Source: Aminicella lysinilytica (GTDB lineage Bacteria > Bacillota > Clostridia > Peptostreptococcales > Anaerovoracaceae). From it: a stretch of DNA of 64,000 bases. The DNA is taken from assembly GCF_004362975.1 (NCBI RefSeq), contig NZ_SNXO01000001.1, positions 1 to 64,000 of the forward strand. The letters run 5' to 3'. The notes under the pieces are model-generated. The model did not search any database, was not told the DNA's origin, and worked only from the letters and a program-made list of their open reading frames with translations. Shown in pieces: positions 4,934 to 61,616 of this stretch. Positions within the stretch are counted from its first letter, which is position 1. Every line of letters starts with the position of its first letter. The position numbers and the translations under genes are program-made.

Positions 4934-6085
4934 ATGAGCAAAACCAAGAATAAAACCAAGCATCCTGTGTTTGCGGTTATAACCCGCATATGGTCCCTGC
5001 TGTTTCTGGCAGCATCGGGCGGCATCGCGTACCTTATGTATTATGCGGACATTCTGCCGGCCAAATACCAGTACGGCGGGTACGCCGCCATTGGGGTATG
5101 CTTTTTGATATTGTTTCCGGCTTTGTTTTTCAAAAGGTTCAAAATGTCCCGCAAGGTAATTTGTCTGGTTTTGTCAATTGCCCTGGTGGGCTGTTATGCT
5201 TACGGTGGCAATTATCTTTACAAGACGGTGAAGTTTTTCTCTAAGATAACCAAGATAAATACTGCTGACAGCAGCCTGGCCAAGCGCGTCAGCGTTACGG
5301 ACGATTCATATAACATTTACATCAGCGGCATCGATATCACTGGAAATATTGACACAGTCTCGCGGTCTGACGTGAATATGATAGTCACGGTCAACCCTAA
5401 GACTCATAAGATCCTGCTGACTTCGATCCCGCGGGACTATCTGATCAAGCTGCCAAGCGCCAACTATGCTTCCGACAAGCTGACTCATACAGGCGCCTAC
5501 GGCATAGACGACACTCTCGGCGCAGTGGAAGATCTCCTGGGCATCGATATGAATTATTATGTGAAGGTAAATTATTCGACAGTGTTGAAGCTGGTGGATT
5601 CCATCGGCGGCATTGATGTGAATTCTGATTATACATTTACGACCAGCGGCATGAAGTCTATCTACACATTCAACAAAGGCATGAACCACCTGAACGGCAA
5701 GCAGGCTCTGGCTTTCGCCCGGGAGCGTCATTCTTTCCCTGACGGCGATATCCAGCGCAATAAAAATCAGCAGAAGGTAATGCAGGCTGTTCTGAAGAAG
5801 GTCAGCTCCAGCAAGACGCTGATCATGAAGTATTCTGATATCCTCGGGGGTATCCAGGATTATATGAAGACTAATTTCACCGGCACGGAAATCAGGGATC
5901 TGATCAAGATGCAGGTTCGCGATATGCCGAATTGGAAAATCACCAAGCAGAATATGGTGGGTACTGATTCTACTGAGTTCTGCTACTCGACGGGTGCTGA
6001 TCAGGAGGTTTCTGTGGTCGTGCCTGACGCCACGAGTATGGAGAAGGCAGTTACGAAGATCAAGCAGGTGGAGTCCGGAAAATAA
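4934..6085 (+). CDS. LytR-CpsA-Psr (LCP) family cell wall polymer ligase
   Basis: Membrane-anchored enzyme of 383 residues that attaches teichoic acid-like or capsular polymers from undecaprenyl carriers to peptidoglycan. About three hydrophobic segments occupy the first ~100 residues, followed by the extracellular LCP domain with the diphosphate-binding arginines and aspartates in SRSDVNMIVTVNPKTHKILL, TSIPRDYLI and FARERHSFPDGDIQRNKNQQ. The ATG at 4934 has AGAGGAGTA immediately upstream; an upstream in-frame start has none. RNA element copy 2 starts within 2 nt of its stop codon. A second LCP gene lies at 32557-33861. Confidence 0.9.
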   Translation: MSKTKNKTKHPVFAVITRIWSLLFLAASGGIAYLMYYADILPAKYQYGGYAAIGVCFLILFPALFFKRFKMSRKVICLVLSIALVGCYAYGGNYLYKTVKFFSKITKINTADSSLAKRVSVTDDSYNIYISGIDITGNIDTVSRSDVNMIVTVNPKTHKILLTSIPRDYLIKLPSANYASDKLTHTGAYGIDDTLGAVEDLLGIDMNYYVKVNYSTVLKLVDSIGGIDVNSDYTFTTSGMKSIYTFNKGMNHLNGKQALAFARERHSFPDGDIQRNKNQQKVMQAVLKKVSSSKTLIMKYSDILGGIQDYMKTNFTGTEIRDLIKMQVRDMPNWKITKQNMVGTDSTEFCYSTGADQEVSVVVPDATSMEKAVTKIKQVESGK

Positions 6086-6086
6086 G

Positions 6087-6364
6087 GCTATAATTCCGCT
6101 ATGCTGGTCCTCGTGCGCAGGCAGTCATATAGCCTCACTCGCGAAGAACAGAATGTGCTGCGAACTCAGCGAAATAACACAGTTTCCTGTGGAAACTGTA
6201 AAAGGAGAATTCCTCGGTGTAATCATACAAGTATGATTACACATTCGGCCTTCTCCTTTTTTATTATTTCGCTTCAGACAGCGCAGCACATTTGTCTGTT
6301 CTTCCTGCTCGTCTGCGGCTATGACTGCACTTGCTCCTGCGGAATCGCATAGCGGAATCATAGC
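6087..6364 (+). ncRNA. rod-shaped structured RNA element, copy 2
   Basis: Second copy of the element seen at 721-1003, beginning directly after the LCP stop codon. Helices: 6093-6104/6347-6358 (12 bp), 6121-6128/6321-6328 plus 6131-6134/6317-6320, 6143-6151/6296-6304 (9 bp), 6152-6162/6282-6292 (11 bp), 6168-6177/6264-6273 (10 bp), side hairpin 6179-6187/6191-6199, and apical hairpin 6217-6228/6231-6242 with flanking AAGGAGAA/TTCTCCTT. The conserved boxes GTCCTCGTGCG, CTCACTCGCGAAG, CAGACAGCG and CTCCTGCGGAATCGC occupy the same places as in copy 1. The downstream tail CTTGGTTGAAAG (about 6369-6380) also matches copy 1. It separates the convergent LCP and uspA genes. Confidence 0.72.
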
Positions 6365-6443
6365 TCGCCTTGGTTGAAAGATACTTGAGTTTTAGCTTTA
6401 ATAGCCGAGGCTTTATTGCGTAGTATTAATGCTAGAATTCTTG

Positions 6444-6854
6444 CTATAATTCCGCTTTCTCTTCGGGTAGTACTACTACCGGGATGTGGGCGTATTTTAT
6501 AAGATGAACGGATACTGAGCCCAGGAACATTGAGATTCCTTTATGGGTGCGCTTGACGATGACGATCACGTCTATGGCGTTCTGCTTGGCGTATTTCAGG
6601 ATCGTATTGCCGGCAACTCCGAATTTGACTGCCTTAGTCACCTGGTAATCCGACAGTTTCTCAGCTACCTGATCCAGTACGGCCATTGATTCTTTCTCCA
6701 TCCGGTCGAAGAAGACCTGACTTGTAGTGTCCACATCTTCGCGGACGGTCAGCAGTGTGATTTCCACACGATCAGGATGATAGATGGTTTTTATGGCATC
6801 TACCGCCTCGATGCTTCTGTCACTTCCGTCTATAGGTATCAATAATTTTTTCAT
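6444..6854 (-). CDS. universal stress protein, UspA family
   Basis: A 136-residue single-domain UspA protein of the adenine-nucleotide-binding alpha/beta fold. N-terminal LLIPIDGSDRSIEAVDAI and a C-terminal MFLGSVSVHLIKYAHIPVVV segment match the family; the usual G-2X-G-9X-G(S/T) ATP motif is partly present as GS-VS. Such proteins are induced by starvation or stress, usually with no known partner. The start has an AGAGGTG site upstream. It is the last gene of a possible minus-strand run with crcB and the MocR regulator (12-nt gaps), which may be coincidental. Confidence 0.85.
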   Translation of the reverse strand: MKKLLIPIDGSDRSIEAVDAIKTIYHPDRVEITLLTVREDVDTTSQVFFDRMEKESMAVLDQVAEKLSDYQVTKAVKFGVAGNTILKYAKQNAIDVIVIVKRTHKGISMFLGSVSVHLIKYAHIPVVVLPEEKAEL

Positions 6855-12340: not shown

Positions 12341-12353
12341 AAAATCCTAGTAT

Positions 12354-12607
12354 GTGTTTTATGATAAATCACGATATTTGGAGCCAAAAATCTGAATTTT
12401 AATTATTGCTGAAGGGAATTCTGAACTCGAGTACAGATATGAACGTATATGAAATAACCAGAAGCCAACAAAGGTGATGAGCGTGTGAAGTGGAGCCAAA
12501 ATTGTGACTCGGAGAGAGGTATAATTGTGCAAGACCACTCTGTGCTATACGTAATCGTGGTGGTTTTCGTATTTTGGACACGAAAAATTCGATTTGTCAT
12601 AAAACAC
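12354..12607. mobile_element. MITE-like element, copy 1
   Basis: Flanked by inverted repeats: GTGTTTTATGATAAATC at 12354-12370 and its near-exact reverse complement at 12591-12607 (16 of 17 bases). A second element with the same ends lies at 27996-28270. No coding sequence is present inside. The word TGGAGCCAAAA occurs twice inside (12379-12389 and 12491-12501). The right end precedes the hydF ribosome binding site by about 55 bp, so hydF is either expressed through the element or from a promoter within it. No clear target duplication is visible. Confidence 0.7.
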
Positions 12608-12674
12608 ATCAAGGCAAGTGAGCCCGGAGCCGAAATCAGTAAACCCGCAACCAAGACAATTGAAAGGAGCATCA

Positions 12675-19937: not shown

Positions 19938-20220
19938 AAACTAGTTTTATAGCAAAACGGCTATTTCAGCAGTTGAAATTACAAAAGGCTACCTCATGCT
20001 GCGTCTGATTTACGGTTTAGTCCTGACAATGTGGGCAGTACTGAAAATTGCACTAATCCAAATACAATAATCCCAACATTTGGCTTGTTAATGAAGCAAA
20101 TGTTGGGATTTGTCGTTGTTATGGTAAACCTAAGCAGGCGATTTGAAGGTGTTCATTATGGAATAACTGAATTTTGTAATTTGGAACGTCTCAAACGAGG
20201 TTTTGCTATAAAACAAGTTT
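19938..20220. repeat. 283-bp nested inverted-repeat element
   Basis: The ends, 19938-19958 and 20200-20220, are inverted repeats matching at 20 of 21 bases. Inside, AAATTAC/GTAATTT and GGTTTA/TAAACC can pair in nested order, and a strong hairpin (20071-20082 with 20097-20108, 12 bp perfect) sits near the centre. It resembles the rod elements in length and nesting but not in sequence, and no second copy was seen in this window. It could be a MITE or a structured RNA. Nothing coding is supported inside. The next 175 bases (20221-20395) show no clear feature. Confidence 0.5.
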
Positions 20221-27990: not shown

Positions 27991-27995
27991 CCGAA

Positions 27996-28270
27996 GTGTT
28001 TTATGATAAATCGACCTTTTTCTGTTCAAAAAACAGAAGTCTAGCAAATTCGGCCGGAATCCTGGCCAGTATGCATATTTATACTACTTTATGCGGCCAG
28101 TGGAATCACCAGCGCCGGTTTGGCTCACCAGATTATCACTGCTATTAGATTTGGGTTAATCTAAGCGTGCCGATTCCTGTACTTCAGTTCAGATATTTCT
28201 TCAAACATCTGTAGAATCTAGTACGCATTCGTATTTTTGAATCCGTTTATCGCGATTTATCATAAAACAC
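27996..28270. mobile_element. MITE-like element, copy 2
   Basis: The ends are 18-bp perfect inverted repeats: GTGTTTTATGATAAATCG at 27996-28013 and its reverse complement at 28253-28270. They match the ends of the element at 12354-12607. The interior differs but holds several hairpins, for example CTGTT/AACAG near 28023, TGGCC/GGCCA around 28063-28100 and TTAGATT/AATCTAA near 28145-28163. No coding sequence is supported. Confidence 0.72.
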
Positions 28271-28571
28271 ATCTTTAAAGAATTGGCGGCAATCGGCGAT
28301 TTTCATCTTCTCTTGTATAAGTATCTATATCATGAATAATCAGGAGACCAGTGTACGGTTTTTGGCCATTCCAATTTCAATATGCATTTTAGGACTACTC
28401 ATTAGGAAGAAGAGCACCGGTATAGTGGGCGGCAGGTTGAGCAAAAGTGCACCGACGTCGATGCTGCCAGGCCAGGCTCTTGCGGCCGCCGGCCCATAGA
28501 AAGCAAAGAAATAAGCCGGCCGCGGAAGGCGGCCGACCTGTGAATGTATCCGGAAGTGTATAGGATTGTCT
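28271..28571. other. intergenic stretch, no confident feature
   Basis: A minus-strand reading frame here has a hydrophobic stretch that might be a decayed gene fragment, but there is no ribosome binding site or recognisable domain. GC-rich inverted words (GCCGGCC) occur around 28480-28530. Confidence 0.3.
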
Positions 28572-36154: not shown

Positions 36155-37645
36155 ATGGCAGACAAAGAAAAGAAAGTACGGGTGCCGCGTACGCCAAAGG
36201 TTTATCAGGCACTTATCACATTCGGCATTTTAATTGTCGTAATGGCGGTCGCAATTATCGTATACGGCTCTCCGGTACATGTTCCAATGTTCATCGGAGT
36301 TATCGTAGCAGCCTGCATGTCGTTATACCTGGGATATGACTGGGGTTTCATCGAAAAGGCAATGATGGATGGAATATATAACGCCCTTCAGGCTATTATC
36401 ATACTTATTATCGTAGGAATCCTCATCGGAGTGTGGATCGTCGGAGGAATCGTACCGGCAATGATCTATTACGGCCTCAAACTTCTGTCGCCGTCAATAT
36501 TCCTGGTAGCAGCTCTTCTGATCTGCTCCATTACATCCCTGGCAACAGGTTCGTCATGGGGAACTATGGGAACTATGGGTCTTGCCCTCATGGGAATCGC
36601 TACGGGCCTGGGAATACCTGCGCCAATGGCGGCCGGAGCTATCATATCCGGAGCATACTTCGGCGACAAAATGTCACCTTTGTCAGATACGACGAATCTG
36701 GCTCCTGCTATGGCAGGCACTGACGTTATCACTCACGTTAAGTTCATGATGCTCCCTACGGGAGTTGCTTACGCAATTTCCATCGTAGCCTTCGGCATTA
36801 TGGGATTCATGCACACATCCAATACCGGTGGAGCAGACCTGTCTTCTATTAAGGAGATGAGCGATGGCCTTTCCGGCATGTTCAACATCAACCCGCTTCT
36901 GCTTCTGCCGCCTATTATCGTAATAGGAGCTGTAGCAATGAAGATACCTGCGATTCCGGGAATCACTCTGGGAATCATTTCCGGAGCGATCATAGGTATG
37001 ATTTTCCAGGGAGATGCTTCATCTTTCGGAGTAATACTGGATGCAGGAATGAATGGATATACAAGTAACAGCGGAATCAAATCTATCGACAGCCTCCTGA
37101 GCACAGGCGGTATCAGCAACATGATGTATTCTGTTTCCCTGACAATGATCGCCATGATGTTCGGCGGTATTATGGAGAAAACCAAACAGCTGGACGTTAT
37201 AGTAGAAAAGATCCTGCGCATTGCCAAGAGACCTGCTACTCTAGTGCTGACTACAGAGGCTACCTGCCTGCTGAGCAACATCACTATGCCGGAGCAGTAC
37301 ATTTCTATCGTAGTACCTGGCAGAATGTATGCGAAATCATATAAGAATATGGGACTTCATCCTAAGACTCTTTCCAACGCTTTGGAAGGATCAGGAACAG
37401 TTACTTCAGCTCTGGTTCCTTGGAACACATGCGGAGTTTATATCCTGGCAACATTGGGAGTTTCAACATTCCAGTACTTCCCATATGCGATCTTCAATAT
37501 TGCAATGCCTATCACAGTTGCAGTAATGGCATTCATGGGTCTGACTCTTGCTGACAAGGACGGATACAGAATGACTAAGAGAGCCCAGGCTAAGAAAGCA
37601 GCTGACATGGCTCAGAGAGAAGAAGCAGAAGATCTGGAAGCATAA
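36155..37645 (+). CDS. nhaC: NhaC-family Na+/H+ antiporter
   Basis: An integral membrane protein of 496 residues with about 12 helices. Family segments include SLATGSSWGTMGTMGLALM, SGAYFGDKMSPLSDTTNLAP and LSNITMPEQYISIVVPGRMY. It probably exchanges sodium for protons, or a carboxylate pair such as malate/lactate as in MleN relatives. The ATG at 36155 follows AAGGAGAAAAG; a long in-frame extension upstream overlaps the divergent regulator and is not used. Codon bias resembles that of well expressed genes. RNA element copy 3 begins 4 nt after its stop codon. Confidence 0.88.
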   Translation: MADKEKKVRVPRTPKVYQALITFGILIVVMAVAIIVYGSPVHVPMFIGVIVAACMSLYLGYDWGFIEKAMMDGIYNALQAIIILIIVGILIGVWIVGGIVPAMIYYGLKLLSPSIFLVAALLICSITSLATGSSWGTMGTMGLALMGIATGLGIPAPMAAGAIISGAYFGDKMSPLSDTTNLAPAMAGTDVITHVKFMMLPTGVAYAISIVAFGIMGFMHTSNTGGADLSSIKEMSDGLSGMFNINPLLLLPPIIVIGAVAMKIPAIPGITLGIISGAIIGMIFQGDASSFGVILDAGMNGYTSNSGIKSIDSLLSTGGISNMMYSVSLTMIAMMFGGIMEKTKQLDVIVEKILRIAKRPATLVLTTEATCLLSNITMPEQYISIVVPGRMYAKSYKNMGLHPKTLSNALEGSGTVTSALVPWNTCGVYILATLGVSTFQYFPYAIFNIAMPITVAVMAFMGLTLADKDGYRMTKRAQAKKAADMAQREEAEDLEA

Positions 37646-37648
37646 AAT

Positions 37649-37928
37649 GTGCAGACTACGAAGGTCCTCGTTTGTCCTCGTGCGCGAACAGCCATATAGT
37701 CTCACTCACGAAGAATAGAACACGTTACGAACTAGGCGAAATCTTAAAATTTTCTTTGAAAATTTAAATGGTGACATTGTCGGAATAATTGTACAAGTGC
37801 ATTATTCCGCCTTTGCCACCATTTATTTCGCCGTCAAACAGCGTAACGTGTTTTTCTATTCTTCTTGCCCGTTTGCGACTATGGCTGTATCTGCTCCTGC
37901 GGAATCACTCGGGCCTTTGTGTCTGCAC
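37649..37928 (+). ncRNA. rod-shaped structured RNA element, copy 3
   Basis: Third copy, and the most diverged, starting just after the nhaC stop. Helices: 37649-37656/37921-37928, 37688-37695 plus 37696-37701 with 37877-37888 (12 bp), 37710-37718/37856-37864 (9 bp), 37719-37729/37842-37852 (11 bp), 37735-37742/37825-37832, side hairpin 37744-37754/37758-37767, and an apical arm with 37782-37789/37801-37808. Compared with copy 2, helix 37719-37729 reads AACACGTTACG instead of AATGTGCTGCG and its partner changes to match. The conserved boxes GTCCTCGTGCG, CTCACTCACGAAG and CTCCTGCGGAATCAC remain. Confidence 0.72.
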
Positions 37929-37979
37929 TAGTCGTTTCCTTAGAAACAGAAACAATAAACTGTATTTCACCATCTATGA

Positions 37980-38624: not shown

Positions 38625-39174
38625 AGCAATAAGTTATTAGTAAGAAACTAAGCAACCAAGGCGGAAGGGGCGAAAGCCAGGTCTCCAGTCCCATTGAAGC
38701 AGTTGCATTTGGGCTCCGCGCACGTATTGGTCAAATATCCAAGATGATGGTGCGTATTTTTATTTATTGTAAACCAAATCCGCACTTATTGACTGAATCT
38801 AAGAGGCCAAGGTGCGCAGCGCTAGGATTGATTGGTATAAATAGAAATAAATGGAAGGAACTGGGGAGAGGAAATGCACTCTTTGTCTTCTGAAATGGCT
38901 AATAAGTGCGCAGTAAATCGTTGGAACACCAATATCCGCACCTCCATGCTCTGAGAATCACTGATAAGTGCGGAAACCATATTTGGAACCCACCTTAACG
39001 CACCTTGATCCCTTAATAAGAGGCTATACGTGCGAGTCGCACGTATAGAACCAAATAGCAGATAAAAGGTGCGGACAACGTGTCTAGGATTATGGGTACA
39101 TACCATTATGGGGACCTACCATAATAGCAATAAGTTATCAGTAATAAACCAAGCAACCAGGGCGGAAGGGGCGA
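38625..39174. repeat. 49-bp direct repeats bounding a repeat-rich spacer
   Basis: 38625-38673 and 39126-39174 match at 45 of 49 bases and both contain GCAACCA and GGCGGAAGGGGCGA. They enclose a 450-bp non-coding segment holding the CGCAC/GTGCG array. This looks like a duplicated or inserted unit. No gene is supported between 38542 and 39204. Confidence 0.75.
38719..39073. repeat. array of CGCAC/GTGCG sites in a 31-bp register
   Basis: Cores occur at 38719 (CGCAC), 38750 (GTGCG), 38781 (CGCAC), 38812 (GTGCG), 38906 (GTGCG), 38937 (CGCAC), 38969 (GTGCG), 38999 (CGCAC), 39030 (GTGCG), 39038 (CGCAC) and 39069 (GTGCG). Most neighbours are 30-32 bp apart; the 38812-38906 gap is three periods. Units CGCAC-N26-GTGCG share inner ATTGG and CCAA words and occur in both orientations. 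The pair at 39030-39042 lies within a 25-bp palindrome. Function unknown. Confidence 0.7.
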
Positions 39175-61101: not shown

Positions 61102-61602
61102 CGCCACATCATAACTGGAAAATCAACGATTCTTGCACGGGCCGGGCCGCAGGACGTCGGCCGCAAGAATTGCTTTGAAATGATTGCCATTGTGGCACTA
61201 TCCTTTTTCGAAATCAATGAAACGCAAGAATCGGCCTGATAATTGGACTGATGTGGCGGATATCAGATTTCATAACAGGATCCGTGCAAGAATCAGCCAA
61301 ATAATTGATCCATTGTGGCGGCCACCGGCCTCAACGGCAGCGTTTCCAATGGCTACGCGCCACATTACTTATGTAATTTCCTTGATTCTTGCGTGAGGCT
61401 CCCTAATATTTTGGTGAGACGCCACAGTGCCTTCAATAATCCGAGGATTCTTGCACGCAAGCCCGTCACCTTGATTTGATACGCCACATTGCAATAAAAA
61501 AGACAGTGATTCTTGCAGGCAGGCTGGTGAGCAATTCCATCGACCGATTCTTGCACGGACCGGGCCGCAGGCTGGTGAGCAATTCCATCGACCAATTCTT
61601 GC
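61102..61602. repeat. array of CGCCACA-N19-GATTCTTGC units with 62-bp period
   Basis: Seven units of 35 bp have exactly 19 bases between CGCCACA and GATTCTTGC (or its AATTCTTGC variant). Units at 61102-61136, 61358-61392, 61420-61454 and 61482-61516 are in + orientation; 61163-61197, 61224-61258 and 61286-61320 are in - orientation. Same-strand neighbours are 61-62 bp apart. The 19-base cores vary but several contain CAATTAT or CAATAAT. Two partial copies (GATTCTTGC at 61546, AATTCTTGC at 61594) follow a duplicated 27-bp sequence. There is no gene in 61043-61616. Confidence 0.8.
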
Positions 61603-61616
61603 AGCCCAACGCCAGC

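Follow-up and report, generated by a model that had tools for sequence, protein, structure and literature searches.

REP sequences of Escherichia coli lower translation when they lie within 15 nt of a stop codon, according to one account of these palindromes (PMC12306157). Template switching is described as a process that both creates and maintains stems (PMC8794818): it writes inverted copies, homogenizes arms, acts in coding sequence, and inverts spacers (PMC8794818, PMC8604942).

The sequence described here touches on both subjects. It was met three times in the window, a stretch of 64,000 nt from Aminicella lysinilytica (contig NZ_SNXO01000001.1, positions 1–64,000), and it belongs to a palindrome that is dispersed in the genome and placed behind stop codons. 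Its outer stem is locus-specific, its conserved loops are joined by covarying stems, and at one locus there are empty sites and a target duplication. The family was not found in the literature searched.

Three copies in the window

A preliminary description noted three RNA elements, each directly behind a stop codon, sense to the upstream gene, and between convergent genes. All of this holds. The stops lie at 718–720 (TGA), 6083–6085 (TAA), and 37643–37645 (TAA); Pfam backs the upstream gene families (HdeD/DUF308, LCP, and NhaC, respectively); and gene calls bear out the sense orientation, with a convergent gene as the next one called behind each copy. The copies span about 717–1043, 6083–6456, and 37643–37930, with z = −12.0, −12.2, and −11.4 for the fold against shuffles. 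Each contains a conserved core of ~240 nt, which runs from the 5' core GTCCTCGTGCG to the 3' core CTCCTGCGGAATC; at its closing three-way junction two hairpins, Pa and Pb, branch off. An outer stem, P1, encloses the core:

717–740, + strand: copy 1, P1 5' arm, the end of the HdeD/DUF308 gene including its TGA stop (718–720); pairs with 984–1005, and extends 25 nt from the core
742–983, + strand: copy 1, conserved core (5' core GTCCTCGTGCG, three-way junction with Pa and Pb, 3' core CTCCTGCGGAATC)
840–893, + strand: copy 1, long apical hairpin Pb (inverted repeat, 96%; from the fold), then TATATTTTTATTTC
984–1005, + strand: copy 1, P1 3' arm, complementary to the HdeD gene end
1010–1043, + strand: copy 1, conserved tail beginning GTTGAAAG, 26 nt past the 3' core
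6083–6085, + strand: TAA stop codon of the LCP (LytR-CpsA-Psr) gene
6087–6100, + strand: copy 2, T, the left direct repeat GCTATAATTCCGCT (exact 14-nt repeat), within the P1 5' arm
6107–6346, + strand: copy 2, conserved core
6351–6364, − strand: copy 2, T', the inverted T with one mismatch, in the P1 3' arm (6347–6364)
6373–6406, + strand: copy 2, conserved tail beginning GTTGAAAG, 26 nt past the 3' core
6443–6456, + strand: copy 2, T, the right direct repeat GCTATAATTCCGCT, presumed target-site duplication
37643–37645, + strand: TAA stop codon of nhaC
37649–37668, + strand: copy 3, P1 5' arm (nhaC 3' flank); pairs with 37907–37928
37674–37906, + strand: copy 3, conserved core
37907–37928, + strand: copy 3, P1 3' arm, complementary to the nhaC 3' flank

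The GTTGAAAG tail was not found behind the P1 3' arm of copy 3.

The notion that the element itself starts at the stop has to be given up. The conserved element begins ~5–7 nt before GTCCTCG, and the ~20 nt from there back to the stop are locus sequence. What had passed for the first ~20–25 nt of each copy belongs to the host: it is the gene end, and a 3' arm specific to the locus mirrors it.

Other repeats share the window. Its sole Rfam match, to the group II intron entry RF00029, covers positions 29–94 at the contig start, just before and outside copy 1; the copies themselves gave no Rfam match at the gathering threshold. Two units of ~260–280 bp (12352–12609 and 27993–28273) are bounded by inverted repeats with GTGTTTTATGATAAATC-type ends, and appear to be a second MITE-like family unrelated to the gene-end palindrome. 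The inverted repeat AAACTAGTTTTATAGCAAAAC, with 241 nt between its arms (19938–20220), is probably another small element. A 49-nt direct repeat (38625–38673 and 39126–39174; 92% identical, 501 nt apart) lies near a pair of small genes downstream of copy 3 that by eye resemble a toxin-antitoxin pair, and at 61127–61603 near-identical direct repeats of 27–37 nt are clustered, with an inverted pair between them.

Gene ends and the mirrored outer stem

The A. lysinilytica genome (2.29 Mb) was searched with BLAST, two arm profiles, and two covariance searches. These returned 46 copies with a 5' arm (47 rows minus one partial row), whose neighboring genes were called with a gene caller trained on the window. 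The upstream gene is sense in 43 copies and antisense in three; in 35 of the 46 its sense stop lies 10–35 nt before the core, in three the stop is at or inside the core edge, and in five the sense gene is farther off. Chance would put ~1.25% of random copies into the 10–35-nt zone, assuming ~2200 genes (binomial 3e-57). Under a stricter null, with copies uniform in convergent gaps, 17 copies could be scored, and log10 P for the 12 tight ones is −13.6. In other genera the distance from stop to core peaks at 25–28 nt. Random insertion would seldom give such placement, as the preliminary description surmised, and the link to gene ends that it proposed is far stronger than the three window copies had suggested. 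Its plan to list every copy by stop distance and orientation had a mixed outcome: beside the 35 tight copies stand eight that are farther away or antisense. Counterexamples of the kind it named, far from stops or in another orientation, exist as a minority, both in these eight and in the sister species G013, described below.

Downstream neighbors are convergent in 31 of the 46 cases, co-directional in 11, and not seen in four. Orientation alone says little between convergent genes, because any element there is sense to one neighbor. The placement signal is the 5' end, not the 3' end, abutting a stop: among 24 scorable copies, the gap is at most 10 nt on the left (5') side in 18 and on the right (3') side in one. 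Several loci hold two copies facing each other, mostly each behind its own gene. TAG stops are enriched at the element (23 of 38 gene ends, versus 53 of 168 other genes; p 0.0014). We considered that the stop codon might come from the element and rejected this: in several host genes the Pfam domain reaches the C-terminal end, and relatives of NhaC and LCP end normally.

Where the conserved tail was found (20 of 34 copies), it always starts 24–28 nt past the 3' core, and the P1 3' arm, which lies in the 24–28 nt before it, is locus-specific. P1 reaches ~25 nt from the core in A. lysinilytica, wherever the stop lies. Between copies, the outer 5' and 3' arms show identity at or near chance (0.25–0.35, measured ungapped since gapped alignments misled) even where the cores are at least 80% alike; the tail past the 3' arm is conserved. 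Within a copy, the 3' arm matches its own 5' arm: in 27 of 34 A. lysinilytica copies and in 53 of 63 copies from the family, the fit is above the 99th percentile for mismatched arms. In genus g82 the inverted repeat is longer: over 49 copies its median reach from the core is 47 nt, against ~1 nt for mismatched flanks. The relation of P1 length to stop distance there is not significant (rho 0.41, p 0.12, n 16). The copies in G009 and in G013 have a P1 common to copies, not one specific to the locus.

P1 can take in the stop codon and coding sequence of the host gene. At locus L285 the core begins 9 nt past the stop codon of an infB-like gene. The 3' arm there mirrors 22 nt of the gene end in inverted form, with two mismatches: the final 15 nt of coding sequence, the stop, and 4 nt more. 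Among the 17 copies with coding sequence in reach, complementarity counted over coding sequence only beats mismatched arms (p≤0.05) in three.

The pairing is close throughout. In the sister alignment 97.0% of cells are paired, versus 36.6–48.4% when slid, and both sides have changed in 29 of the 39 pairs of the shared fold. The stems are nearly all intact despite diverged arms. Across the family the internal loops (5' AAACUC and 3' CUCARACA) and both cores are conserved; the stems vary freely. Of the pairs on each strand, ~3.5% are GU wobbles (sense, 121 of 3439; antisense, 131 of 3476); in 26 of 34 A. lysinilytica copies the better fold is that of the antisense strand. Isolated helix mismatches, counted symmetrically, come to 27 GT and 43 AC. 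Selection on a sense-strand RNA alone should favor GT; we read the pattern as pairing repair at the DNA level.

Insertion, relatives, and filled and empty gene ends

The preliminary description offered mobility as one option, and the infB-rbfA junction of genus g83 supports it. Two genomes (G238 and G158) are empty there, G219 has one insertion, G192 has a different one, and G100 has both; a sixth g83 genome gave no rbfA. The G219 insertion is flanked by AGAAAATAATTTGTG and AGGAAATAATTTATG, a target duplication of ~15 bp, and contains an inverted copy of the infB end. The duplication holds the infB stop and the rbfA start, and so both genes stay whole. From the empty sites and the target duplication it follows that the element has been mobile. 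Copy 2 in the window has the same order as the G219 insertion (T at 6087–6100, T' at 6351–6364 with one mismatch, T at 6443–6456). Direct flanking repeats scoring at least 11 were found in one of 34 A. lysinilytica copies (control fraction 0.008) and in one of 63 family copies (control 0.003), barely above the control level at this threshold. What speaks for target duplication is how long these two matches are, together with the one locus that has empty sites; elsewhere flanking duplications are absent or, as we suppose, decayed.

By eye, no terminal inverted repeats lie outside the palindrome at the ends of the infB insertion. The last codons of infB show several synonymous differences between species with and without the first insertion (L285/L342 and L345): GTTGAGCGCAAG against GTGGAAAGGAAA. 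Judged from these codons, the coding end of infB looks as if it had been rewritten together with the hairpin. A search for Y1_Tnp (PF01797) gave no match in the element carriers G000, G007, G014, and G015, and no mobilizing enzyme for the element was found. Open reading frames lie between the inverted copies of L293 and close to the repeated copies of L292 and L295.

A single-copy BLAST search had pointed to near-confinement to one species, a view rejected once profiles revealed the limited sensitivity of BLAST. A sequence-only model of the 3' arm matched five of 16 other members of the genus. A family-wide covariance model, built on 17 sister copies, detected divergent relatives of the element across the family, which seems to be the Anaerovoracaceae: 40 of 247 genomes have them, spread over 20 of 92 genera. 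Named relatives of the nhaC gene put the organism close to Mogibacterium, Baileyella, and Emergencia. In an order-wide sample 43 of 393 genomes matched, all but G352 within the same family. These counts are lower bounds, because under strict filters the model recovers only five of the 46 A. lysinilytica copies. Four family loci (L155, L156, L163, and L262) gave no Rfam match at E≤1, including none to a group II intron domain V or catalytic core. As for carriage by phages, a first viral pattern returned nothing and a second returned 50 stretches; none of these matches either arm profile, and they are therefore taken as chance matches.

The sister species G013 is distinctive. Most of its 14 copies lie inside a longer MITE-like carrier with terminal repeats and have no tie to stops; at most five of the 14 are behind a sense gene. 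The carrier ends resemble GTGTAAAATAATTG...GGAGTTTT at, for example, L157, L166, L173, L178, L180, L189, and L193, and the carrier is likely an IS256-type MITE.

In relatives the center of the palindrome resembles a terminator. In 49 of 77 family copies the sense U-tract of the central stem is longer than the opposite A-tract, and in four it is shorter; a T-run of at least 4 follows the stem in 36 of the 77 and an A-run in 15. For A. lysinilytica the corresponding T-run occurs in 17 of 34 copies, with runs of at least 5 T in 11. A simple terminator scan of the three window palindromes gave two antisense matches, at Pa, and none in sense; with a loop limit of 8, it may overlook Pb. The earlier suggestion of a 3'-UTR module that acts as terminator gains from the terminator-like center in the family; the window scan counts against it. 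Several copies in G009, G008, and G014 stand behind an ordinary terminator, where a terminator in the element would be redundant, and a U-run is missing from the operon insertion at infB-rbfA; acting as a terminator is therefore not a general property of the copies.

The pncB gene (nicotinate phosphoribosyltransferase) provides a comparison of filled and empty gene ends. It was matched in 46 of 49 g82 genomes, and 30 loci were fetched; four (L356, L367, L369, and L374) were excluded, as the script gave no usable gene end. The element is present at five of the 26 usable loci (four flagged by the script, L360 by eye). By eye, at least 12 of the 21 element-free loci have an ordinary terminator, and the filled ones have no terminator besides the element's own central stem. 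Together with the U-tract, this pattern suggests a portable terminator, as far as the sequences tell. Two orthologous insertions, in G267 and G491, are 90% alike in the coding end and 90% in the core; their 5' arms are 41% and their 45-nt 3' flanks 53% alike. The apical stem of a pncB copy was at one point traced to the native terminator (L353 and empty relatives), but the same stem occurs at another locus (L326) and the proposal was dropped. At L360 the apical loop is inverted relative to other copies (GAGTTT on its 3' side), as spacer inversion by template switching would give. At two further pncB loci (L350 and L363) apparent 5' ends of group II introns, seen by eye, lie right behind the native terminator; they occupy the same gene end that the palindrome fills in other species.

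Explanations and known systems

We consider it probable, if well short of certain, that the family is a mobile gene-end module, palindromic in form, with a distal arm that is rewritten, most plausibly by template switching. A non-coding palindrome, formerly or still mobile, would settle at gene 3' ends in sense orientation, the moving part extending from ~5–7 nt before GTCCTCG to past the 3' tail. Insertion would leave the order T-core-T'-tail-T: a direct target duplication, T, of ~14–15 bp, and an internal inverted copy, T'. The gene end and T' would then pair as P1, over ~25 bp in A. lysinilytica and over a longer stretch in another genus. Template switching of DNA (snap-back copying) during replication would both write T' and uphold the pairing of the arms; we infer this because wobble pairs are rare and without strand bias. 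Once in place, the element would act as the 3'-end structure of the gene. A bolder version, which we hold only tentatively and think rather unlikely, is a new class of mobile palindrome, in which a dedicated snap-back with a ruler of ~25 nt writes an inverted copy of the target into the element at insertion. If this were true, each copy would bear an address label of its host gene end, making that end one giant hairpin, and this label might even direct the element back to that gene in other strains.

The pairing could also belong to a functional 3'-UTR RNA (stabilizer, terminator, or processed sRNA) under selection, with P1 tracking the gene end by compensatory substitutions and dispersal being incidental. 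Such an RNA would account for the conservation of AAACUC, CUCARACA, and both cores across the family, for the sense placement and sense U-tract, and for stems kept nearly all intact though the arms have diverged. It does not sit well with GU pairs at only ~3.5%, equal on the two strands; with better antisense folds in 26 of 34 copies; or with GT mismatches (27) that do not exceed AC (43). Moreover, P1 is swapped wholesale between species whose coding ends and cores are 90% identical, and the empty sites show insertion, so that we regard this explanation as unlikely, although one to be taken seriously. Insertion is what an ordinary MITE-like element would provide, the gene-end bias then being survivorship, with insertions elsewhere lost. 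The target duplication and empty sites agree with this, as do the MITE-like carrier around most G013 copies and the convergent gene faced by 31 of the 42 A. lysinilytica copies with a called downstream neighbor. Survivorship does not, however, give a 5' end within 10 nt of a stop together with a loose 3' side (18 of 24 versus one of 24), and G013 copies stand behind sense genes in at most five of 14 cases. The infB insertion lacks terminal inverted repeats outside the palindrome (by eye), and a target-derived arm is no feature of MITEs; we find this account distinctly improbable.

Two other explanations invoke a specific route of movement. A REP/BIME/REPIN-type palindrome, moved by a RAYT (Y1) transposase and acting at stops like E. 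coli REPs, would likewise be palindromic, present in many copies, near stops, and often in inverted pairs facing across a spacer. The reported effect of REPs within 15 nt of a stop (PMC12306157) accords with this, and by that analogy it is possible that the element, too, lowers translation. Yet the A. lysinilytica genome, with 46 copies, has no Y1_Tnp match; the element measures 150–290 nt, compared with 10–71 nt for the predicted E. coli REPs of that account (PMC12306157); and one of its arms is locus-specific. With the transposase missing, RAYT was rejected as the mover, unless it acts in trans from elsewhere, and we attach very little weight to a REP origin. Alternatively, T' might be a guide, the element homing by pairing with the gene end in the manner of group II intron exon-binding sites. 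A variable segment of fixed length between conserved blocks, complementary to the flank, is what a guide would look like, and G100 and G192 share an infB insertion although the rbfA of G100 is closer to those of G219 and G238, which lack it. But homologous recombination accounts for that shared copy, no guide-using enzyme was identified, and T' differs at nearly every locus, so that a guide would need rewriting after each move. We deem homing of this kind scarcely probable at all.

The mobile module with a rewritten arm would offer a natural case of a mobile element that becomes fitted to whichever gene end it settles at. It may also reveal how one terminator is traded for another in bacterial genes. 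Moreover, filled and empty sites exist, as do species pairs with the same core and different arms, and these permit a direct test of template switching against slow compensatory substitution.

Each known system shares part of this picture. Like REP, BIME, and REPIN sequences of E. coli and other bacteria, the copies are dispersed intergenic palindromes, many just past stops and often in inverted pairs. They are several times longer, however, with conserved internal loops, a locus-specific target-derived arm, and no RAYT in A. lysinilytica, and their consensus differs from the REP/BIME/REPIN consensus and foot motif, as compared by eye. Like MITEs, they are short, non-coding, and numerous, with a target duplication in the best case; unlike MITEs, they have no constant terminal repeats outside the palindrome (such terminal inverted repeats belong to the G013 carrier only), a host-derived outermost stem, and strict placement at stops. 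With intrinsic (Rho-independent) terminators they share the central GC stem, followed by a T-run of at least 4 in 36 of 77 copies, and at pncB they take a terminator's place; in contrast to such terminators, this stem is nested in a palindrome of 150–290 nt with conserved loops, and many copies have no U-run. Finally, template switching at quasipalindromes is known as a source of scattered mutations, whereas here a single mobile family at gene ends would be subject to it again and again.
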